Source: Streptomyces fradiae (GTDB taxonomy: Bacteria > Actinomycetota > Actinomycetes > Streptomycetales > Streptomycetaceae). Taken from it: a DNA stretch of 64,000 nt. Below, piece by piece: positions 20,046 through 28,966 of this stretch. The position numbers and the translations under genes are program-made. Every line of letters starts with the position of its first letter. The first letter of the stretch is position 1. Location of the stretch: the NCBI RefSeq assembly GCF_041270065.1, contig NZ_CP065958.1, positions 1,922,001-1,986,000 on the forward strand, given 5' to 3'. Under the pieces are notes generated by a model. It was not told the DNA's origin, ran no database searches, and saw only the letters and a program-made list of their open reading frames with translations.

Positions 20046-20146
20046 GCTTCTCCCCTGTGTTCGCTGCGGGTTCGGCAGCCCCGCCCCCTTCGACATCCTC
20101 GAAAATACGCCCGATGTAAGGGGCTCGCCAGCAAGGCAGGCCGTAC

Positions 20147-20165
20147 TTACTAAGGCTGACCTTGC
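20147..20165. promoter_or_regulatory. Weak iron-box-like sequence upstream of the VIT gene
   Basis: TTACTAAGGCTGACCTTGC agrees with the Streptomyces DmdR1/IdeR iron box at about 11 of 19 positions; the right half (GGCTnACCT) is good and the left half poor. It is reported because the adjacent gene is a predicted iron/manganese transporter. Confidence 0.25.
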
Positions 20166-20210
20166 CGTTCGCGCGGGGGTCGGACGGGGGTCGGAGGGAA
20201 CTGACACACC

Positions 20211-20224
20211 GTCACCCGGGTGAC
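20211..20224. promoter_or_regulatory. 14-bp perfect palindrome upstream of the ARH operon
   Basis: GTCACCCGGGTGAC is self-complementary over 14 bp. It sits one base before the GAAACGTTTC palindrome, 71-84 bp upstream of the first ARH start. It is a probable binding site for an unidentified dimeric regulator. Confidence 0.45.
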
Positions 20225-20225
20225 A

Positions 20226-20235
20226 GAAACGTTTC
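20226..20235. promoter_or_regulatory. LacI/RbsR-like operator upstream of the ARH operon
   Basis: GAAACGTTTC is a perfect 10-bp palindrome with the central CG typical of LacI-family operators. It matches the core of the enterobacterial RbsR operator (GCGAAACGTTTCGC). The operon it precedes encodes a ribokinase-type kinase. No lacI-type gene is in the window. Confidence 0.5.
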
Positions 20236-20294
20236 CGTGAAGGGTGTGGGCCCCCGCGTGGCAGAGATGGGGGAGAGCACGGAAGGGGTACGGC

Positions 20295-21299
20295 ATGACG
20301 GGCGAGGCGACGGTCACGGCGGGCGAGGTGCGGGAACGGGCGCGGGGGGCGTTGCTCGGCCTCGCGGTGGGCGACGCGCTCGGCGCGCCCGCGGAGAACC
20401 TGCGGCCCTCGGAGATCCGCCGTCGCTGGGGCCGGATCGAGGGCTTCGTGGCGGACCGCCCGGCCGGCACCGACGACACCGAGTACGCCATCTTCTCGGG
20501 CCTGTTGCTCGCCCGGCACGGCTCCGCCCTGACCGTGGCCCATGTCGAACGGGCCTGGCACCACTGGATCGCCGACCTCGACGAGGGCCCGTTCCGGGGC
20601 GCTGGCTTCTCGGAGCGCGGCACCCTGGAGAACCTGCGCCGGGGCCTCGCCGCGCCCATCTCGGCCCAGCACCGGCACGCCTGGAGCGACGGTCTCGCGA
20701 TGCGGGCGGCGCCCTTCGGGGTGTTCGCGGCGGGCCGCCCGGCGGAGGCGGCGCGGCTCGTCTCCATCGACGGCAGCGTCAGCCACGAGGGCGAGGGCAT
20801 CTACGGCGGCCAGGCGGTGGCGGCGGGCGTCGCGGCGGCGATGGACGGTGCGAGCGTCACCTCCGTCATCGCGGCCGCCCTCTCCGTGGTCCCGATGGAC
20901 TCCTGGACCGCCCGCTCGATGCGCCGGGCGGTGGTGGCGGCCCAGCGCGTCGAGCCGGACCCGCTGACCCGGGAGCGCGCGGTCCGCTCCGCCGTCGTCA
21001 TCGGCGGCTACCCCTGGACCGACCTCGCCCCCGAGGCCGTCGCCCTCGCCTTCGGCGCCTTCGCCGCGGCCCGCGGCGACTTCCGCACCTCGGTCCTCAC
21101 CGCCGTCAACATGGGCCGCGACGCCGACACCACCGCCGCCGTCGCCGGCGCCCTCGCCGGCGCCCTGGGCGGCGCCACCGTGATCCCGCCCGAGTGGGCC
21201 TCCGCCATCCCCCCGGTCGCCGGCTCCTGCCTCCCCTCCATGCGCGGCTACCACGTCCTCGACATCGCCGACCTGCTCACCCCGGAGGGAGAGTCCTGA
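20295..21299 (+). CDS. ADP-ribosylglycohydrolase-family protein 1 (catalytic residues intact)
   Basis: A 334-residue single-domain ARH (DraG-like) protein. The N-terminal GLAVGDALGAPAE, the metal-binding TDDTE (Asp60, Asp61, Thr62) and the C-terminal MGRDADT (Asp276, Asp278, Thr279) followed by AAVAGALAGALGG are all present, so the two-Mg2+ site that cleaves an N- or O-glycosidic bond to ribose looks complete. The ATG at 20295 has GGAAGGGG 6 nt upstream; an earlier in-frame ATG at 20244 lacks one. It opens a seven-gene coupled operon with three more ARH proteins, a sugar kinase, a CoA-transferase and a lyase. The substrate is unknown; ADP-ribosyl-protein or a nucleoside are both possible. Confidence 0.85.
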   Translation: MTGEATVTAGEVRERARGALLGLAVGDALGAPAENLRPSEIRRRWGRIEGFVADRPAGTDDTEYAIFSGLLLARHGSALTVAHVERAWHHWIADLDEGPFRGAGFSERGTLENLRRGLAAPISAQHRHAWSDGLAMRAAPFGVFAAGRPAEAARLVSIDGSVSHEGEGIYGGQAVAAGVAAAMDGASVTSVIAAALSVVPMDSWTARSMRRAVVAAQRVEPDPLTRERAVRSAVVIGGYPWTDLAPEAVALAFGAFAAARGDFRTSVLTAVNMGRDADTTAAVAGALAGALGGATVIPPEWASAIPPVAGSCLPSMRGYHVLDIADLLTPEGES

Positions 21300-23338
21300 T
21301 GAGCGCAGACCTGACGACCACTGCGACGCCGAACCGAGGCGGCGAGGAATGGTCTTCGACGAGTTCGGAGGACGGCGCGGAGGGGTCCGCCCGCCCGGGC
21401 CCCGAGCGGGACGGCGGGGCGCCGGAGGAACCGGGCGCCCGGCCGGACGGGCAGGCGGACGGCCGGCCCGACGGGCGAACGGACGGGCAGGTGCGCGGCC
21501 GGCGTTCCGACGCGCGGGCTTCCGGCCCCGGGGTCGGCACCGTCGGCGAAGCCGCGGAGCGGGAGGCGCGTGCCGGGCGCCCCGGCGAAGCCGGGCGGTG
21601 GGACCGGGCGGCCGGACCGGTGGCCCGCGGGCTCCGCCCCGCGGGCGACGCCGGGCGGCAAGCCCCGGACACCGGGCGCCCCGGCCGAGCCTGCGGCTGG
21701 AGCGAGGGCGGCGGCGAAGCCGCCACCAACGGGAGCTGGGCCCACGGCGGAGCCGGTGGGCAGGGTGCGCAGGCAAGCCTCAGCCCTCCGACCGACTTGC
21801 CCCGGGGAGGCGCGAACCCCGGCGAAGCCAGGGGCTGGAACGGAGCGGTCGGCGAAGCCGGGCCGCAAAACAGGGGAGCCGGACCGATGGCCCGCGGGTT
21901 CAGCCCTGTGGGCGACGCTGTCGGTGAACCTGGGAGGCGGAACCAGGTGGCCGGCGAAGCCGCCACCAACGGGGGCTGGGCCCACGGCGGAGCCGGTGGG
22001 CAGGGTGCGCAGGCACACCTCGGCGCGCCGACCGCCCCGGCGGCGGCAGGCGCGAAGCCTGGCGAAGCCGGGCCGCAGGGTCGCGCCGCCCGCCGAACCG
22101 GCGAAGCCGCCACCGCCAACAGGGCCAGGCTCACCGGGCGCCGGGCGCCGGTGCTCGGGGTGCGCAGGCGGGGGCGGCGGGAGGGGCGGCGGGAAGGGAT
22201 CGAGGGGGTGTTGCTCGGGATGGCGGCCGGGGACGCGGCCGGGTGGCCGGCGGCGCGGCATCGGGCGGCGCGGATGCCGGAGTGGACGCGGCGGCTCACC
22301 CGGGAGCTTGACACGTTCGCCGAGGAGAACGCGACGACGACGCTGCCCGTACCGATCGCGCTGAACCAGCCGCCCGAGCCCCTCCGCCTCGGTCCCTCGG
22401 ACGACGCCGAGTGGGCGGTGTTCACGGCTGAGGCGCTGCTCGCGGCGGCGGGGCCGCTGTTCCGGACGCTCGCGCCCGAGCGGCGGCTGCGGGCCGCCGT
22501 CGACCAGGCGTGGAACGCGCTCGCGAGCCAGGTCGCCGCCGCGGCCGCCCGCGCGCCCGAGGTCGAGTCCGCCGTGCTCCCGCTGCGGGCGCGGATCTCG
22601 GTGCGGGCCGGGCTCGGGAACCTGGCGACCGGGCTGCGGCCGCCCGCGACCGGCCACGACAACCCGCACTACTTCGACGACGCCGCCTGCGTCCGCGCCG
22701 CCGTGCTCGCCCTCGTCCATCCCGGGGACCCCCAGGCGGCTGCCGCGCTCGCCGAGTTCGACGCGCGCTACACGCAGGACGGCGACGGCGTGCACGGCGC
22801 CCGGGCCATGGCCGCGGCGGTCGCGGCGGCGCTCGGCGGCGCGTCGGCCGAGGACGCGGTGGAGGCGGCGCTCGCCCAGCTGCCGCCCGCGACGGAGATC
22901 GGCCGCAACGCCCGCCACGCCGTCCAGCTGGCCCGCACCGCCACCACCGCCTTCGAGCTGGTCCCGCTCCTGGAGCACCAGATCGTCGACCACGTCTACA
23001 GCTACGGCATCGCCGCGGCCGAGACCGTCCCGGTCGCCCTCGCCCTCGCGCTCGCCGCGCGCGGCGACATGACCGCCGCCGTGCCGGCCGCCGTCTGTCT
23101 GTCCCGGGTCGCCGACTCCGCCCCGGCGCTCGCGGGCGCGCTCACCGGCGCGCTGGGCGGCGGCGGTTCGGTGCCGGCGACCTGGCGGGCCGCCTGCCGC
23201 ACCCTCGCGGGCTGCGCCCTCCCCCGCCTCGCGGGCACCGACCTGGTCGAACTCGCCGGTCTCCTCGCAGCCACGGAACCGACCACCCCGGGTGGACAAT
23301 TCCGGCATGACCCCTCAAACTCACCCCACGCTGGATGA
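21299..23338 (+). CDS. ADP-ribosylglycohydrolase-family protein 2, degenerate metal site, repeat-rich N terminus
   Basis: 679 residues; ATG overlaps the previous stop (TGATG). Residues 1 to about 290 are low-complexity Gly/Ala/Pro/Arg sequence with internal repeats. The ARH domain starts near GIEGVLLGMAAGDAAGW. Its metal motifs are altered: DDA (368-370) replaces DDT, and SRVADS (602-607) replaces GRDADT, so Val604 stands where the first C-terminal Asp should be. It may be catalytically dead or bind only one metal, and could act as a partner of the intact paralogues. The N-terminal codons have lower GC at the third position than the domain, so the true start could be downstream, for example a GTG near 22150. 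Confidence 0.7.
   Translation: MSADLTTTATPNRGGEEWSSTSSEDGAEGSARPGPERDGGAPEEPGARPDGQADGRPDGRTDGQVRGRRSDARASGPGVGTVGEAAEREARAGRPGEAGRWDRAAGPVARGLRPAGDAGRQAPDTGRPGRACGWSEGGGEAATNGSWAHGGAGGQGAQASLSPPTDLPRGGANPGEARGWNGAVGEAGPQNRGAGPMARGFSPVGDAVGEPGRRNQVAGEAATNGGWAHGGAGGQGAQAHLGAPTAPAAAGAKPGEAGPQGRAARRTGEAATANRARLTGRRAPVLGVRRRGRREGRREGIEGVLLGMAAGDAAGWPAARHRAARMPEWTRRLTRELDTFAEENATTTLPVPIALNQPPEPLRLGPSDDAEWAVFTAEALLAAAGPLFRTLAPERRLRAAVDQAWNALASQVAAAAARAPEVESAVLPLRARISVRAGLGNLATGLRPPATGHDNPHYFDDAACVRAAVLALVHPGDPQAAAALAEFDARYTQDGDGVHGARAMAAAVAAALGGASAEDAVEAALAQLPPATEIGRNARHAVQLARTATTAFELVPLLEHQIVDHVYSYGIAAAETVPVALALALAARGDMTAAVPAAVCLSRVADSAPALAGALTGALGGGGSVPATWRAACRTLAGCALPRLAGTDLVELAGLLAATEPTTPGGQFRHDPSNSPHAG
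21713..22015 (+). repeat. 63-nt direct repeat, copies 240 bp apart, inside the ARH2 N-terminal region
   Basis: Positions 21713-21775 and 21953-22015 differ at one base and are exactly 240 bp (80 codons) apart. The surrounding 21540-22110 segment contains eight copies of GGCGAAGCC, which can fold as GGC-GAA-GCC mini-hairpins. A second pair (from 21614 and 21881, 267 bp apart) is more diverged. All offsets are multiples of three. Confidence 0.85.
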
Positions 23339-24470
23339 CCGCATCACCGGCAGCCTCCTCGGGGCCGCCGTGGGCGACGCCCTCGGCGGCCCCGTCGAGG
23401 GCTACACCCCCGAGCAGATCGTGGAACGCCACGGCGGCCGCGTCACCGGCATCGTCGGCCCCTGGAACGGCGCGGACTGGCGCACCGCCCGCCCCATCGC
23501 GCCGTACCACAAGGGCGACGGGCACGTCACCGACGACACCCTGATGACCCACGCCCTGATCAGGGTGTACGAGAAGGTCCGCGACCACCTCGACGCGTAC
23601 GCGGTCGCCGAGCACCTGGTCCCCGAACTCATCGGCCGCCCGGTCTGGATCCCGGAACTGGAGGCGGAGGCGCTGCCCCTCCAGCGGGTCTTCCTGGCCG
23701 AGAAGTGGATCGTCGCCCGGCTCCACTACGGGCACGCCGACCCGCGCGAGGCCGGCACCGGAAACATCGTCAACTGCGGCGCCGCGATGTACATGGCCCC
23801 GGTCGGCCTGGTCAACGCCGCGCACCCGGCCGCCGCGTACGCCGAGGCCGTCGACATCGCGGGCGCCCACCAGTCCTCGTACGGACGCGAGGCCGCCGGC
23901 GTCTTCGCCGCCGCCGTCGCCGCGGCCTGCACGCCCGGGGCGACCCCGCGCTCGGTCGTCGACACGGCGCTCGCCCTCGCCAAGGACGGCACCCGCGCGG
24001 CGATCGAGGCGATCGCCGAAGTCGGCGACGCGCACCAGGACTTCGAGACCGCGCTCGCCCCGCTGCGCCGGGCCGTCGCCCCCTTCGACTCCGTCGGCCC
24101 CGACTACCGCGCCCCCTCCCTGGACGCCCGCCGCCCCTCCCGGACCCACGCCATCGAGGAACTGCCCGTCGCCCTCGGCATGCTCCTCGTCGGCGACGGC
24201 GACTACCGCCGTACGGTCCTCGGCGCCGTCAACTACGGCCGCGACTGCGACTCCATCGCCACCATGGCCGGCGCGCTCGCCGGCGCCCTGCACGGCGAGT
24301 CCGCCGTCCCCGCCGAGTGGGCCAAACAGATCGCCGAGGCCAGCCGCCTCGACCTGCACGCCCCGGCCGCCGCCCTGACCGCCGTGACCCACGAGGTCTT
24401 CGCCCGCGACAGGGCCCGCCGCCGGTCCCACGAGTCGGCGTACGCGACCCTGACGGGCGCGGCCCGATGA
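23307..24470 (+). CDS. ADP-ribosylglycohydrolase-family protein 3 (catalytic residues intact)
   Basis: A 387-residue ARH protein. GAAVGDALGGPVEG, TDDT (Asp76, Asp77, Thr78) and NYGRDCDS (Asp313, Asp315, Ser316) followed by IATMAGALAGALHG indicate an intact di-metal site. It differs from protein 1 by insertions (WNGADWRTARPIAPYHKGDGH before TDDT) that probably shape a different pocket. I chose the ATG at 23307, which lies 32 bp inside the end of the preceding gene; a GTG at 23292 is an alternative. Its stop overlaps the next ATG (ATGA). Confidence 0.85.
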   Translation: MTPQTHPTLDDRITGSLLGAAVGDALGGPVEGYTPEQIVERHGGRVTGIVGPWNGADWRTARPIAPYHKGDGHVTDDTLMTHALIRVYEKVRDHLDAYAVAEHLVPELIGRPVWIPELEAEALPLQRVFLAEKWIVARLHYGHADPREAGTGNIVNCGAAMYMAPVGLVNAAHPAAAYAEAVDIAGAHQSSYGREAAGVFAAAVAAACTPGATPRSVVDTALALAKDGTRAAIEAIAEVGDAHQDFETALAPLRRAVAPFDSVGPDYRAPSLDARRPSRTHAIEELPVALGMLLVGDGDYRRTVLGAVNYGRDCDSIATMAGALAGALHGESAVPAEWAKQIAEASRLDLHAPAAALTAVTHEVFARDRARRRSHESAYATLTGAAR

Positions 24471-26014
24471 CGAGCCCTCCGGCCGGCGCCCAGGGCCATG
24501 CCCCCGAGGAGGCCCCGGAGGACCACCGCGCCGCCCGGCCCCTCACGACCCCCGTCCGCCTCACCTGGGTGCAGCCCGAGGACCTGGTGGGTCACGAACT
24601 GCGCCAAGCGGCGGAGGACGGCCGCGACGCCCGCGCCCTCGCCGCCCGCTGGTCCGCCGCCGGCGGCCCACCCGCACCCCCATCCGCCGGCGCCTCCCCC
24701 ACCCCCCGCCCGGACCTCCGCCCCCTGGCCGAGACCCTCCTCGACGCCCTGTCCGAACTCCCCTCCCCCCTCACCCCCCTGGAACCCACCCCCCTCACCG
24801 CGATCATCGCCGCCTGCCCCAACTGGCCGCCGAGCGCGACGCGCGAGGCGCCGCGGGACCAGGGGGACGGGGGCGGAGCCCCCGGTCTCGTCAGAGTTTC
24901 GGGGTGGGGGCACCACCCGGGCGAAGCTCTGGGGGAGGGCGGGGTGGGGGAAGTCGACGCCCTGTACAACCGGCTGCACGCCGCCTGGCTCGGCCGCGCC
25001 GCCGGCTGTCTCCTCGGCAAGCCCGTGGAGAAGCTGCCCCTCCCCGCCATCCGCGCCCTCGCCCGCGCCACCGGCAACTGGCCGCTCAGCGACTGGTTCA
25101 CGGCCCGCGGCGTCCCCGCGGAGCTCCTCGCCGCGCACCCGTGGAACCGCCGCTCCGCCACCACCTCGCTCGCCGAGAACATCGACGGGATGCCCGAGGA
25201 CGACGACCTCAACTACCCCCTCCTCAATCTGCTCCTCCTCCGTCGCCACGGCCGCGGCTTCGGCACCGCCGACGTCGCCCGGCTCTGGCTGGACGAACTG
25301 CCCGCCGGACGCACCTTCACCGCCGAGCGGATCGCCTACCGCAACCTCCTCGACGGTGTCGAACCCCCGCACACCGCCTCCCGCCGCAACCCCTTCCGCG
25401 AGTGGATCGGCGCGCAGATCCGCGCCGACGTGCACGGCTGGACCCACCCCGGCGACCCGGCCGGCGCCGCCCGCCAGGCCCACCGGGACGCCGTGCTCAG
25501 CCACACCGGCAACGGCGTGTACGGCGCGATGTTCGTCGCCGCGACGATCGCCGCCGCCGCGAGCGGGACCGCCGACGTGCACGCCTGCCTCGCCGCCGGG
25601 CTCGCCGTCGTGCCGCCCGGGTCACGGCTGGCCCGCGCCGTACGGTTCGGCATCGGGGCCGCCCGTACGCACCCGGACTTCGACACCGTGGTGGACCGGC
25701 TCCACGCCGAACTCGGCGGGTATCACTGGGTCCATGCCGTGCCCAACGCCGCCCTGCTCGCCGCCGCGCTCACCCACGCCGACGGCGACTTCACCCGCTC
25801 CATCGGCGCGGCCGTGTCCGGCGGCTGGGACACCGACTCCAACGGAGCCACCGCCGGCTCGGTCGCCGGACTGCTCGCCGGGCACCCGGACCGGCTGCCC
25901 GAATCCTGGACCTCCCCTCTCAAGAACCGGCTCTCGACCTCGGTGCCGTCCTTCGACGGCATCGGCTTCGACGCCCTGGCCGCACTGACGCACTCGGAGG
26001 CAGTACGCCCATGA
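24467..26014 (+). CDS. ADP-ribosylglycohydrolase-family protein 4, with N-terminal extension
   Basis: 515 residues. An N-terminal segment of about 110 residues (RLTWVQPEDLVGHELRQAAE and a Pro-rich linker) precedes a stretch made of repeat-derived sequence. The ARH domain then starts at YNRLHAAWLGRAAGCLLGKPVE. The N-terminal motif is PEDDDLN (Asp245-247) instead of TDDT, and the C-terminal motif GWDTDSN (Asp455, Asp457, Ser458) is intact. This variant pattern suggests a distinct ARH subfamily, not a dead enzyme. Couplings on both sides (ATGA) place it in the same operon. Its function is unknown. Confidence 0.8.
   Translation: MTSPPAGAQGHAPEEAPEDHRAARPLTTPVRLTWVQPEDLVGHELRQAAEDGRDARALAARWSAAGGPPAPPSAGASPTPRPDLRPLAETLLDALSELPSPLTPLEPTPLTAIIAACPNWPPSATREAPRDQGDGGGAPGLVRVSGWGHHPGEALGEGGVGEVDALYNRLHAAWLGRAAGCLLGKPVEKLPLPAIRALARATGNWPLSDWFTARGVPAELLAAHPWNRRSATTSLAENIDGMPEDDDLNYPLLNLLLLRRHGRGFGTADVARLWLDELPAGRTFTAERIAYRNLLDGVEPPHTASRRNPFREWIGAQIRADVHGWTHPGDPAGAARQAHRDAVLSHTGNGVYGAMFVAATIAAAASGTADVHACLAAGLAVVPPGSRLARAVRFGIGAARTHPDFDTVVDRLHAELGGYHWVHAVPNAALLAAALTHADGDFTRSIGAAVSGGWDTDSNGATAGSVAGLLAGHPDRLPESWTSPLKNRLSTSVPSFDGIGFDALAALTHSEAVRP
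24869..24939 (+). repeat. Repeat-derived insert inside ARH protein 4
   Basis: Contains a GGGGGC-GGA-GCCCCC hairpin (24869-24883) and GGGCGAAGCTCTGGGGGAGG (from 24919), which closely matches the non-coding element at 33260-33281 in the trpM-trpB gap. It reads in frame as a Gly-rich linker just before the ARH domain. Confidence 0.65.
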
Positions 26015-26904
26015 CCAGCAGCATCGTCGTGCTCGGCAGCACGAACATGGACCTCGTGGCCTACGTGGCCAAGGCGCCCGCCCGCGGCGAGACCGTCACC
26101 GGCCGCGAGTTCCGCACCGTGCCAGGCGGCAAGGGCGCCAACCAGGCCGTCGCCGCCGCCCGGGCCGGCGCCGAGGTGTCGATGATCGGCGCGGTCGGCG
26201 CCGACGACTTCGGCGTACGGATGCGGGCCGCGCTCGAGCACAGCGGCGTCGACACCGATCTGCTCCGCACCGTCGAGGGCGCCTCCGGCACCGCCCATAT
26301 CGTCGTCGACGACGAGGGCGGCAACGCGATCGTCGTCGTCCCCGGCGCCAACGGCACCGTCACCTCCCTCGACCACGGCGACGAGGCCCTGATCGGCACC
26401 GCCGACGCCCTGCTCCTCCAGCTCGAACTCCCCCTCTCCGTGGTCGTCGAGGGCGCGCGGGCCGCCCGCGAGCGCGGCGTCCGCACCATCCTCACCCCCT
26501 CCCCCGTCCAGCCCCTGCCGCCGGAACTCCTCGCCGCCACCGACCTGTTGGTGCCGAACGAGCACGAGGCAACCGCCCTCACCGGCGAGACCGACCCGGC
26601 CGCCGCCGCCAAGGCGCTCCTGCAGCAGGTGCCCGAGGTGGTCGTCACCCTCGGCGCGGCCGGCTGCCTGCACGCCGTACGCGGCGCCGAACCACGGACC
26701 GTGCCCGCGCCCCGCGTCCGGGCCGTGGACACCACCGCCGCCGGCGACACCTTCGCCGGGGTCCTGGCCGTGGCCCTCACCGAGGGCCGCCCCATGCCGG
26801 AGGCCCTCGCCTGGGCGTCGGCGGCCGCCGCGCTCTCGGTGCAGCACGAGGGCGCGTCCACCTCGATGCCGTACCGCGCCGCGATCGAGGCGGCCCTCGC
26901 ATGA
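26011..26904 (+). CDS. rbsK: Ribokinase-type carbohydrate kinase (PfkB family)
   Basis: A 297-residue PfkB-family kinase. The N-terminal substrate motif GSTNMDL and GGKGANQA (39-46) are those of ribokinases, and the C-terminal TTAAGDTFAG carries the catalytic base Asp246 and the anion hole. It would phosphorylate ribose, or a ribose-containing nucleoside, with ATP. ATGA overlaps on both sides tie it to the ARH genes upstream and the CoA-transferase downstream. Placement directly after four glycohydrolases suggests that it takes the sugar they release. A RbsR-like operator precedes the operon. Ribokinase is the best call; a nucleoside or pseudouridine-type kinase is the main alternative. Confidence 0.85.
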   Translation: MTSSIVVLGSTNMDLVAYVAKAPARGETVTGREFRTVPGGKGANQAVAAARAGAEVSMIGAVGADDFGVRMRAALEHSGVDTDLLRTVEGASGTAHIVVDDEGGNAIVVVPGANGTVTSLDHGDEALIGTADALLLQLELPLSVVVEGARAARERGVRTILTPSPVQPLPPELLAATDLLVPNEHEATALTGETDPAAAAKALLQQVPEVVVTLGAAGCLHAVRGAEPRTVPAPRVRAVDTTAAGDTFAGVLAVALTEGRPMPEALAWASAAAALSVQHEGASTSMPYRAAIEAALA

Positions 26905-28124
26905 CCGCCGCCATGAGCCCCGCCGCCGGCACCGCCCCGCAGCCGCCGCTGCACGGACTGCGCGTCCTCGACCTCGCCACCCTCTTCGCGGGCCCGCTCG
27001 CCGCGATGATGCTCGGCGACTTCGGGGCCGACGTGATCAAGATCGAGCACCCCCGCAAGCCCGACCCGTCCCGCGGCCACGGCCCCGCCAAGGACGGCGT
27101 CGGCCTGTGGTGGAAGGTCCTCGGCCGCAACAAGCGGACCATGACCCTCGACCTGTCCACGCCCGGCGGCCGCGACACCCTGCTGCGGCTCGCCGCCGAG
27201 GCCGACGTGATCGTGGAGAACTTCCGCCCCGGCACCCTGGAACGCTGGGGCCTCGGCTGGGAGGAACTGTCCACGGTCAACCCGCGCCTGGTGCTCGCCC
27301 GGGTCACCGGCTTCGGCCAGTTCGGCCCGTACGCCCACCGGCCCGGCTTCGGCACCCTCGCCGAGGCCATGAGCGGCTTCGCCGCCATCACCGGCGAGCC
27401 GGACGGACCGCCGACCCTGCCGCCCTTCGGCCTCGCCGACTCGATCGCCGCCCTCGCCACCGCGTACGCCGTGATGACCGCGCTCACCGCCAGGCACACC
27501 ACCGGCCACGGCCAGGTCGTCGACATGGCCATCATCGAACCGATGCTCTCCGTCATCGGACCCCACCCCCTCTGGTACGACCAGCTCGGCTACGTCCAGC
27601 CGCGCACCGGCAACCGCTCCCGCAACAACGCCCCGCGCAACACCTACAAGACCTCCGACGGTTCCTGGGTCGCCGTCTCCACCTCCGCCCAGTCGATCGC
27701 CGAACGCGTGCTGCGCCTGGTCGGCCGGCCGGAGCTGATCGACGAACCCTGGTTCGCCACCGGCACCGGACGGGCCGCGCACGCGGACGTCCTCGACGAG
27801 GCGGTCGGCTCCTGGATCTCGCGCCACACCCGCGACGAGGCCATGGCCGCCTTCGAGAAGGCGGAGGCCGCCATCGCCCCCGTCTACGACGTCCGCGACG
27901 TCCTCGACGACCCCCAGTTCCAGGCCCTCGGCACCGTCACCGAGGTCCCGGACCCCGAGCTCGGCCCGATCCGGATGCAGAACGTGCTCTTCCGGCTCTC
28001 CGACACCCCCGGCGCGATCCGCTGGACCGGCCGCCCGCACGGCGCCGACACCCACACCCTCCTCTCCGAGCTCGGTCTCACCCCAGGCGAGATCGCCACC
28101 CTGCGCGCCGAAGGAGCCGTATGA
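26901..28124 (+). CDS. Class III CoA-transferase (CaiB/BaiF family)
   Basis: A 407-residue family III CoA-transferase. LHGLRVLDLATLFAGPLAAMMLGDFGADVIKIE is the family N terminus (split here by normal variation), ENFRPGTLERWGLG and ARVTGFGQFGPY follow, and the catalytic Asp208 is in GQVVDMAI. These enzymes transfer CoA between carboxylic acids through an aspartyl-CoA thioester. ATGA couplings on both sides link it to the kinase and to a CitE-type lyase. A CoA-transferase followed by a CitE-like lyase is the arrangement used to activate and cleave citramalate or malate-type acids, so such a substrate is a reasonable guess. Confidence 0.88.
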   Translation: MTAAMSPAAGTAPQPPLHGLRVLDLATLFAGPLAAMMLGDFGADVIKIEHPRKPDPSRGHGPAKDGVGLWWKVLGRNKRTMTLDLSTPGGRDTLLRLAAEADVIVENFRPGTLERWGLGWEELSTVNPRLVLARVTGFGQFGPYAHRPGFGTLAEAMSGFAAITGEPDGPPTLPPFGLADSIAALATAYAVMTALTARHTTGHGQVVDMAIIEPMLSVIGPHPLWYDQLGYVQPRTGNRSRNNAPRNTYKTSDGSWVAVSTSAQSIAERVLRLVGRPELIDEPWFATGTGRAAHADVLDEAVGSWISRHTRDEAMAAFEKAEAAIAPVYDVRDVLDDPQFQALGTVTEVPDPELGPIRMQNVLFRLSDTPGAIRWTGRPHGADTHTLLSELGLTPGEIATLRAEGAV

Positions 28125-28966
28125 CCCCCACCCGGCCCGTCACCCGCCCTGTCACCCGACCCGTCACCCGGCCCGTCCCCCTCACCTGGCTCTACGCCCC
28201 CGGCGACCGCCCCGACGTGGTCGGCAAGGCCCTGGCCTCCGGCGCCGACGTCGTCATCGTCGACCTGGAGGACGCGGTGGCCCCGGACCGCCGGGCCTAC
28301 GCCCTCGCGGCCACCCGCGAACTGCTCGCCGACCCCCAGCCCGTACCGGTCCATGTCCGCGTGCACGCACCCCGCGACATTCCATCCCTGGTCTCCCTCC
28401 CCGGACTCGTCGCTCTCCGTGTTCCCAAGGTGACACACCCCACTGACATCGCCCGGATCGCCGAGATCGCCGCGGGCCTCCCGCTCTACCCGCTCCTGGA
28501 GAACGCGCTCGCCGTCGAGCACGCCCACGCCATCGCCGCCGCCCACCCCTCGGTCCACGGCATCGCACTCGGCGAGGCCGATCTCGCCGCCGACCTGGGC
28601 GTACGGGAGGACCGCGGGCTCGACTGGCCGCGCAGCCGGGTCGTGGTCGCCGCCCGCGCCGCCGCCCTGCCGCCGCCGGTCCAGTCCGTCCACCCCGACG
28701 TCCGCGACCTCGACGCCCTCGCCGCGAGCTGCGCCCGGGGCCGCGCGCTCGGCTTCCTGGGGCGCACCGCGATCCACCCCCGCCAGCTCCCGGTGATCGA
28801 GCGGGCCTACCTCCCCGCCCCCGACGAGATCGCCGCGGCCGAGGAGGTGGTCAAGGCGGCCGAGGCCCAGGAGGGCGCCCTCGCGCTGCCGGACGGCCGG
28901 TTCGTCGACGCGGCCGTGGTCGCCCGGGCCCGCCGTGTCCTGACCCTCGCCGCCCGCAGGGCCTGA
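28121..28966 (+). CDS. CitE/HpcH-type acyl-CoA lyase
   Basis: A 281-residue HpcH/HpaI aldolase/citrate lyase-family protein. LTWLYAPGDRPDVVGKALAS, DVVIVDLEDAV (metal/carboxylate-binding segment), HVRVHAP, PKVTHP and LENALAVEHA are the standard CitE-like blocks, and GRTAIHPRQL near the end is also characteristic. Members cleave or form malyl-CoA, methylmalyl-CoA or citramalyl-CoA using Mg2+. With the CoA-transferase just upstream it could turn a 2-hydroxy-diacid into acetyl- or propionyl-CoA plus a keto acid. The N terminus repeats RPVT three to four times, encoded by a 12-nt tandem unit. It is last in the operon and is followed by a strong terminator. Confidence 0.85.
   Translation: MTPTRPVTRPVTRPVTRPVPLTWLYAPGDRPDVVGKALASGADVVIVDLEDAVAPDRRAYALAATRELLADPQPVPVHVRVHAPRDIPSLVSLPGLVALRVPKVTHPTDIARIAEIAAGLPLYPLLENALAVEHAHAIAAAHPSVHGIALGEADLAADLGVREDRGLDWPRSRVVVAARAAALPPPVQSVHPDVRDLDALAASCARGRALGFLGRTAIHPRQLPVIERAYLPAPDEIAAAEEVVKAAEAQEGALALPDGRFVDAAVVARARRVLTLAARRA

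Follow-up and report, generated by a model that had tools for sequence, protein, structure and literature searches.

A stretch of 64,000 nucleotides (nt) from Streptomyces fradiae (NZ_CP065958.1, forward-strand positions 1,922,001 to 1,986,000; hereafter the window) contains a seven-gene operon that probably directs the regulated catabolism of an imported sugar–acid conjugate, and not the reversal of ADP-ribosylation. The operon spans window positions 20295-28966, with all seven open reading frames (ORFs) on the plus strand, and encodes four proteins of the ADP-ribosylglycohydrolase (ARH) fold (A1 to A4), a ribokinase-type kinase (RK), a CaiB-type CoA-transferase (CaiB) and a CitE-type lyase (CitE). 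Pfam places PF03747 four times, PfkB, CoA_transf_3 and HpcH_HpaI in this order, and this, together with the ORF coordinates, confirms the gene set and families of an original prediction made for this DNA. The chromosome carrying the window is single and 7.88 Mb long, and the closest loci belong to Streptomyces. Gene content, gene order, coupling, the linkage of an importer and a regulator in relatives, and the conservation of motif residues can all be read from the sequences. The LacI-type regulator and the sugar-type importer, which share a block with the ARH genes in relatives, lead us to favour a catabolic role over signalling, and they support the earlier proposal of a catabolic role that goes beyond reversing protein ADP-ribosylation.

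In a class sample of 296 genomes, A3 is matched (E ≤ 1e-30) in 48, from 10 of the 114 genera, and 26 of the 48 lie outside the genus Streptomyces; the block recurs with different flanks in five further families. In 24 of the 26 non-Streptomyces genomes, the block that holds the ARH genes also contains a LacI-type gene, two permease genes and the gene of a substrate-binding protein (SBP). The two exceptions are L248 and L252, whose contigs begin only at A3 or within A2. Both CaiB and CitE are likewise present in 24 of these 26 loci (the exceptions are L071, where the contig stops 0.4 kb past A3, and L074), and RK is present in 22, the loci without it including L086 and L087. The gene order in L087 is CaiB-CitE-LacI-importer-A3-A4-A1-A2. 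The leanest locus, L086, from a 1.8-Mb genome, consists of LacI, the importer, A3, A4, CaiB, CitE and a protein with a glycoside hydrolase (GH)-type barrel fused to an FGE/EgtB-like domain (the GH/FGE protein; L085 5187-7112, L086 2408-4276), with no match to A1, A2 or RK; its A3 rests on a similarity match and the ORF list. Within the genus Streptomyces, L242 and L243 show the order LacI-importer-A1-A2-A3-A4-(RK in L243 only)-CaiB-CitE, and their ARH proteins are 70-82% identical to those of the window. Pfam, applied to sample members only, confirmed the domains of the importer and the regulator: SBP_bac_1 and two BPD_transp_1 permeases in the L086 proteins and the L073 SBP, and a LacI helix-turn-helix with a periplasmic-binding-like domain in the L086 regulator. 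We take the importer to be of the CUT1 class. One of the families (f19) resembles Jiangella, as L085 has a GH/FGE protein with 100% identity to one of Jiangella mangrovi.

The gene set is also stable within Streptomyces. Of the 120 loci mapped, 88 are bounded by the flanks of the window, with VIT or gltB on one side and lgt on the other (the names gltB, VIT, lgt and dsbA were assigned by reading, from no family search). All 88 bounded loci have matches to A1-A4, CaiB and CitE, and 68 have a match to RK. Most of them were picked by an A3 or A4 match, which builds the presence of these two genes into the sample; CaiB and CitE were not selected for in this way. Genes are fragmented or short in three of the 88 (A3 and A4 in L088, A3 in L109 and A2 in L171). 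Since all of the bounded loci hold A1-A4, CaiB and CitE, and since five further families have the block between different flanks, this recurrence is not chance. Among 41 Streptomyces genomes, A3 and CitE occur together in 29, one occurs alone in 4 and neither in 8; in 28 of the 29 genomes with both, the two lie within about 5 kb of each other. The linkage of ARH, kinase, CaiB and CitE genes in related genomes, set in advance as a test of the original prediction, holds with one break, in genome G307.

How closely are the seven genes coupled? As had been claimed, there is an overlap at every junction; the lengths are 1, 47 or 4 nt. The A1/A2 junction is TGATG, with the A2 start at ATG 21299 (21296 is CTG), A2 and A3 overlap by 47 nt with GTG as the A3 start codon, and the remaining four junctions (A3/A4, A4/RK, RK/CaiB and CaiB/CitE) are ATGA. 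In Streptomyces, the downstream frame is open across the upstream stop in 90/90 loci at A1/A2, 87/88 at A2/A3, 100/100 at A3/A4, 77/79 at A4/RK, 79/79 at RK/CaiB and 100/101 at CaiB/CitE, and in 21 of 22 Streptomyces loci without RK the CaiB frame is open back over the A4 stop. Openness is looser in the other families: 14/18, 16/17, 14/18 and 14/15 at the first four junctions, 5/7 at RK/CaiB and 11/16 at CaiB/CitE. Long open frames are frequent in GC-rich DNA, which makes openness alone a weak sign and a constant relative frame a better one; one relative frame is shared at A2/A3 in only 67 of 88 Streptomyces loci, and the A1/A2 relative frame is constant in 83 of 90. From this arrangement, the seven proteins would be produced together. 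The features are collected in Table 1.

Table 1. Operon genes and candidate operator in the window
Feature	Position	Strand	Evidence or remark
A1, ARH-fold hydrolase, canonical metal motifs	20295..21299	+	PF03747, 201.6 bits
A2, ARH fold, degenerate metal site, sister of A1	21299..23338	+	PF03747, 132.9 bits
A3, ARH-fold hydrolase, canonical metal motifs	23292..24470	+	PF03747, 181.2 bits
A4, ARH-fold hydrolase, extra N-terminal segment	24467..26014	+	PF03747, 159.6 bits, residues 172-473
RK, ribokinase-type PfkB sugar kinase, optional member	26011..26904	+	TIGR02152 over cut-off
CaiB-type class III CoA-transferase	26901..28124	+	PF02515, 421 bits
CitE/RipC-type C-C lyase	28121..28966	+	PF03328, 83.5 bits
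Perfect palindrome GAAACGTTTC, candidate LacI-family operator	20226..20235		59 bp before A1 start

In the window strain, the importer and the regulator are not at the operon locus. An importer homologue is encoded elsewhere in the genome (SBP 53% identical to the L073 protein, permeases 63 and 58%) and is at most a candidate partner of the operon. In L245, from a genome without an A3 or CitE match, an importer lies between VIT/gltB and lgt/dsbA, which is the site of the ARH genes in the window; ARH genes and importer therefore both occur at one Streptomyces site. The search for a LacI orthologue in the window strain was dropped, as 19 LacI-type proteins match at 33-40% identity and none stands out.

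Of the 22 loci scanned, 20 have a LacI-type palindrome with a AAACGTTT core in the stretch of about 160 bp preceding lacI (raw count); it was not found there in L079 and L086. The same core occurs close to lacI in both L242 and L243, and in L245 it precedes the first permease gene. Upstream of A1 in the window, GAAACGTTTC is the sole perfect match in the 64 kb; with one mismatch allowed, there are 2 matches, a number that 6 of 100 shuffles reach. In Streptomyces, the evidence for an operator is suggestive only. A scan for sigma-70-type promoters found none, and such a scan means little in Streptomyces. The divergent intergenic region between VIT and A1 (window 20046-20294) also contains strings common to most Streptomyces loci, such as CGCCAGCAAG in 77/88, and a sequence resembling an iron box; these likely serve the VIT gene.

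Which of the four ARH-fold proteins are enzymes? The two-metal ARH motifs are an N-terminal DD and a C-terminal DxD. In A1, both are present in 107/107 alignment rows. In A3, DD is present in 118/120 rows (with one gap and one bad row) and DxD in 119/120; the bad row is L086, from wrong coordinates, and the A3 of this locus is unusable in the motif table and the tree. A4 keeps its metal motifs in 119/119 rows, with EDDD replacing TDDT and DTDS kept. In A2, DD is retained in nearly all rows and the first Asp of DxD is changed to V, L or N in 113/113 lettered rows (4 gaps). The loss of this Asp, together with the grouping of A2 with A1 in the tree (support 0.89), suggests that A2 is a conserved and probably non-catalytic relative of A1, possibly acting as its partner, while A1, A3 and A4 are likely the catalytic ARH proteins. 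The metal-motif alignment is thereby in line with the earlier proposal that ARH proteins 1, 3 and 4, and not 2, are catalytic.

The ARH profile covers residues 304-628 of the 680 scanned in A2 (about 22205-23179). The N-terminal ~300 residues (window 21299-22195) form a low-complexity linker of highly variable length, whose reading frame is maintained in most Streptomyces loci. Across 108 loci, the A1 and A2 matches are 33 to 1098 nt apart, and because the relative frame stays constant despite this variation, the linker is probably translated.

Two other ARH genes of the window genome were noted, with the names of their neighbours given by reading. The nearest own-genome paralogue of A4 (L246 9479-10600; 50% over 303 residues) adjoins a Nudix gene, has sirtuin-like and macrodomain-like genes within 7 kb and glycerate-kinase-like and BCCT-like genes nearby; these surroundings gave no clear hint on the function of the operon. 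The other (L224 9504-12992) is near Nudix, nicotinamide-nucleotide-adenylyltransferase-like and PnuC-like genes, and is probably NAD-related.

These data bear on the alternative that the four ARH proteins, as is assumed in the S. coelicolor literature, undo the ADP-ribosylation of proteins or nucleic acids and that their neighbours are incidental, which we consider very unlikely. A1-A4 presumably correspond to SCO2028-2031 of S. coelicolor, given four consecutive ARH tags and the tag numbers that we take the flanking genes to have. All four proteins exceed the PF03747 gathering score and A1 aligns with DraG; moreover, PMC9411070 lists SCO2028-2031 as uncharacterised DraG/ARH homologues, four of the eight listed, and PMC5087735 lists SCO2028-2030 as DraG/ARH homologues. 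However, the equivalog cut-offs are far off for DraG (TIGR02662; 76.9 of 337 bits for A1 and 60.1 of 337 for A3) and for Tri1 (NF041672; 52.2 of 490 for A1 and 53.3 of 490 for A3), and A2 and A4 match neither model at E 0.001. Purified SCO2028 and SCO2030 had no detectable activity on U-alpha-ADPr, according to PMC13036486. It also counts against the alternative that the ARH genes share a block with the importer and the LacI-type regulator in relatives, and that CaiB and CitE are linked to them in every bounded Streptomyces locus.

The partner enzymes were assigned in the same manner. RK passes the NCBIfam ribokinase model TIGR02152 (307.1 bits; cut-off 299.65) and is below a second one, NF008353 (270.3 of 341 bits); its GGKGAN and GD motif residues are present in 95/95 rows. 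The Asp of GQVVD in CaiB, which we take to be the catalytic residue, is present in 119/119 rows, as is each of the Arg, Glu and Asp motif residues of CitE, the presumed catalytic residues of this lyase. No named equivalog is over its cut-off for CaiB, the best being succinate-glutarate CoA-transferase (242.7 of 750 bits), and the nearest NCBIfam model for CitE, RipC_Ccl, is under its cut-off (128.1 of 375 bits). The attempt to name the substrate through an equivalog of either enzyme was therefore dropped. Since these nearest models, a glutarate transferase and an itaconate-degradation lyase, concern dicarboxylic acids, the acid may be a hydroxy-dicarboxylic acid, all of the scores being well below cut-off. 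By Pfam, the seven operon proteins contain neither a hydratase domain nor a nucleobase-processing domain. RK is missing from 20 of the 88 bounded Streptomyces loci, in addition to L086 and L087; the ribokinase is dispensable, so the trapping of ribose by the kinase, a step of the original prediction, is not the core.

We propose the following pathway. The substrate would be a glycoside in which the non-sugar part either is a dicarboxylic acid or is converted to one. Where the locus includes the CUT1-type ABC importer, a LacI-type repressor would control this importer and the enzymes. The ARH-fold hydrolases would then cut the sugar bond in the cytoplasm, with A3 and A4 as the core, A1 as an accessory and A2 as the probably non-catalytic partner of A1. 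The kinase, where present, would phosphorylate the freed pentose. CaiB would attach CoA to the acid, and the resulting thioester would finally be cleaved by the CitE-type lyase, yielding an acyl-CoA and a 2-oxoacid that feed central metabolism. What we infer here are the individual chemical steps, the nature of both sugar and acid, and that importer and regulator serve the ARH enzymes. In its most specific form, the proposal makes the ARH-fold proteins small-molecule glycosidases: a pentoside of a hydroxy-dicarboxylic acid would be imported under LacI control, A3 and A4 would cut it, A1 would act in a complex with its dead paralogue A2, and both halves would be burned, the acid by CoA transfer and retro-Claisen cleavage. 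We put this joint claim forward tentatively.

The GH/FGE protein provides a further partner in relatives. It is found in 16 of the 26 non-Streptomyces ARH loci with A3; over the 296 class genomes it is found in 17, all A3-positive, with linkage in 16, and 15 of the 17 belong to one family. No match was found in the 41 Streptomyces genomes at E ≤ 1e-20, an empty result that shows little in this search. Among 7996 candidates scored, 1899 are GH/FGE homologues at E ≤ 0.001. No GH family could be assigned to the barrel, because many amylase-type and other GH structures are found at similar Z (16-19), and the single unlinked copy (L249), which adjoins a GH3-like gene (by reading), gave no sugar name. 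Could the operon instead salvage a nucleoside, an NAD fragment or a modified-base riboside? ARH-kinase-permease cassettes near nucleoside or nucleobase transporters do exist, as PMC10819704 (yegTUV) and PMC3321955 (the SCCmec trio) describe. Yet the relatives have an SBP_bac_1/BPD_transp_1 importer whose nearest models, at weak scores, are sugar binders, and the operon has a GH-type barrel partner in relatives and none of the nucleobase-processing domains. Such salvage is, in our estimate, improbable, and a nucleoside or NAD product as the input, part of the original prediction, was not clearly supported.

The acid arm occurs outside ARH loci as well. In other families and classes, we examined 18 loci that encode a close CaiB homologue; its identity to the best of three queries is 60-66% at 15 of these loci and 53-58% at 3. 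None of the 18 has an ARH match, and CitE is next door in 9. Their recurrent neighbours, by reading and by Pfam on ten members, are a PF04199 cyclase, MmgE/PrpD, an amidohydrolase, IclR and sometimes an Asp/Glu/hydantoin racemase. The cluster, found in L225, L227, L228, L229, L231, L232, L234, L237, L238 and L239 and in some cases with branched-chain-type ABC genes, is an unnamed catabolic pathway, with gene names partly by reading. Being a different cluster, it could not be used to name the substrate. Because CaiB, half of the time with CitE, also occurs in these ARH-less clusters, CaiB-CitE looks like a portable module that may activate and split acids made by different hydrolases. For the same reason, one part of the earlier acid-arm proposal stands and another is not required: CaiB-CitE stays with the ARH genes, while a riboside is not necessarily the source of the acid.

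Two alternatives follow the same evidence. The first holds that two unrelated modules, ARH-sugar kinase and CaiB-CitE, share a transcript and serve different compounds. It draws on the 18 ARH-less CaiB loci, on the loss of RK independently of CaiB and on the separation of A3 from CaiB-CitE in G307; however, CaiB and CitE accompany the ARH genes in nearly all non-Streptomyces loci with other flanks, and they are kept even in the reduced L086 in the absence of A1, A2 and RK. We regard it, on balance, as unlikely. The second holds that the ARH-fold proteins cut another bond (a lactone, amide or ester) of an imported sugar-derived compound, before CaiB-CitE acts. This is consistent with the amidohydrolase, cyclase and MmgE/PrpD genes beside related CaiB-CitE pairs and with the deviation of A4 from the canonical motif, but not with the usual presence of the ribokinase or with characterised ARH enzymes, which cleave C1 ribosyl bonds; we give it a small chance.

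Several observations weigh against the sugar–acid catabolic operon that we prefer. The kinase is often missing, and as CaiB occurs without ARH genes, the ARH arm and the acid arm may be separable. In G307 (L253, L254), A2-A3 and CaiB-CitE are separated by 4.8 Mb on one contig, and A1 and A4 were not found in either of the two stretches examined; CaiB-CitE still adjoin lgt and dsbA, and this broken operon looks like a rearrangement break. In L074, neither RK nor CaiB was matched in the 1.8 kb remaining after A4. L244 (G305) is a decayed Streptomyces copy in which A2 and RK are unmatched, A4 is split into two pieces and the CitE match is short. The importer's nearest models are sugar binders, all far below cut-off, and its sugar class is weakly scored. 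The separately located importer shows no clear association with the operon, the SBP being present in 24/33 Streptomyces genomes with the operon versus 4/8 without it (raw counts, 41 genomes). Only 3 of the 89 other Streptomyces loci have the AACGTT core upstream of A1, one of them (L111) being a near copy of the window, and sites with ≤3 mismatches to GGAAACGTTTCC are only moderately enriched, in 36/88 upstream regions (window included) versus 43/440 mononucleotide shuffles. Finally, little can be concluded about ADP-ribosyl-protein hydrolysis from the single negative assay of the S. coelicolor proteins, which used one substrate.

If the glycosidase reading is true and SCO2028-2031 are A1-A4, four of the eight S. 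coelicolor DraG/ARH homologues would be unrelated to ADP-ribosylation. If the sugar–acid catabolic operon is true, the ARH fold gains a role in carbon catabolism, and A2 would stand as a conserved pseudo-hydrolase within a defined operon. In titles and abstracts, among the matches listed, there is no description of this gene combination, and in the literature on SCO2028-2033, presumably the operon of S. coelicolor, we found no paper with SCO2032 or SCO2033.

How does the operon compare with known systems? With DraG, ARH1, ARH3 and Tri1 it shares PF03747 and, in A1, A3 and A4, the metal motifs, whereas it scores far below the DraG and Tri1 cut-offs and has a catabolic context. The itaconate RipABC system, with its (S)-citramalyl-CoA lyase, likewise combines a CoA-transferase with a CitE-type lyase, and RipC_Ccl is the nearest model; in contrast, the operon lyase reaches about a third of that cut-off, and the operon transferase is of class III, without a hydratase domain alongside, while RipA is a class I transferase. 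The ARH-less actinobacterial clusters have a close CaiB, with CitE adjoining in half, but differ in having no ARH match and another regulator, transporter and ring-opening-type enzymes. The Bacteroides rus locus combines an ARH with ribokinases. E. coli yegTUV, described in PMC10819704, has the ARH-like YegU, the putative sugar kinase YegV (PfkB), a transporter and the dedicated repressor YegW/GgaR; unlike our operon, it has one ARH, a nucleoside-symporter-family transporter, a GntR-family regulator and no CaiB or CitE. The staphylococcal SCCmec trio, described in PMC3321955, places an ARH next to a ribokinase and a permease, but it is a three-gene set without a CoA arm, with one ARH and a cytosine/purine-type permease. 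Since such ARH-kinase-transporter cassettes are known, the operon is not new in kind; a variant that joins four ARHs to an acid arm and adds both a LacI-type regulator and a CUT1-type importer was not found described in our literature searches.

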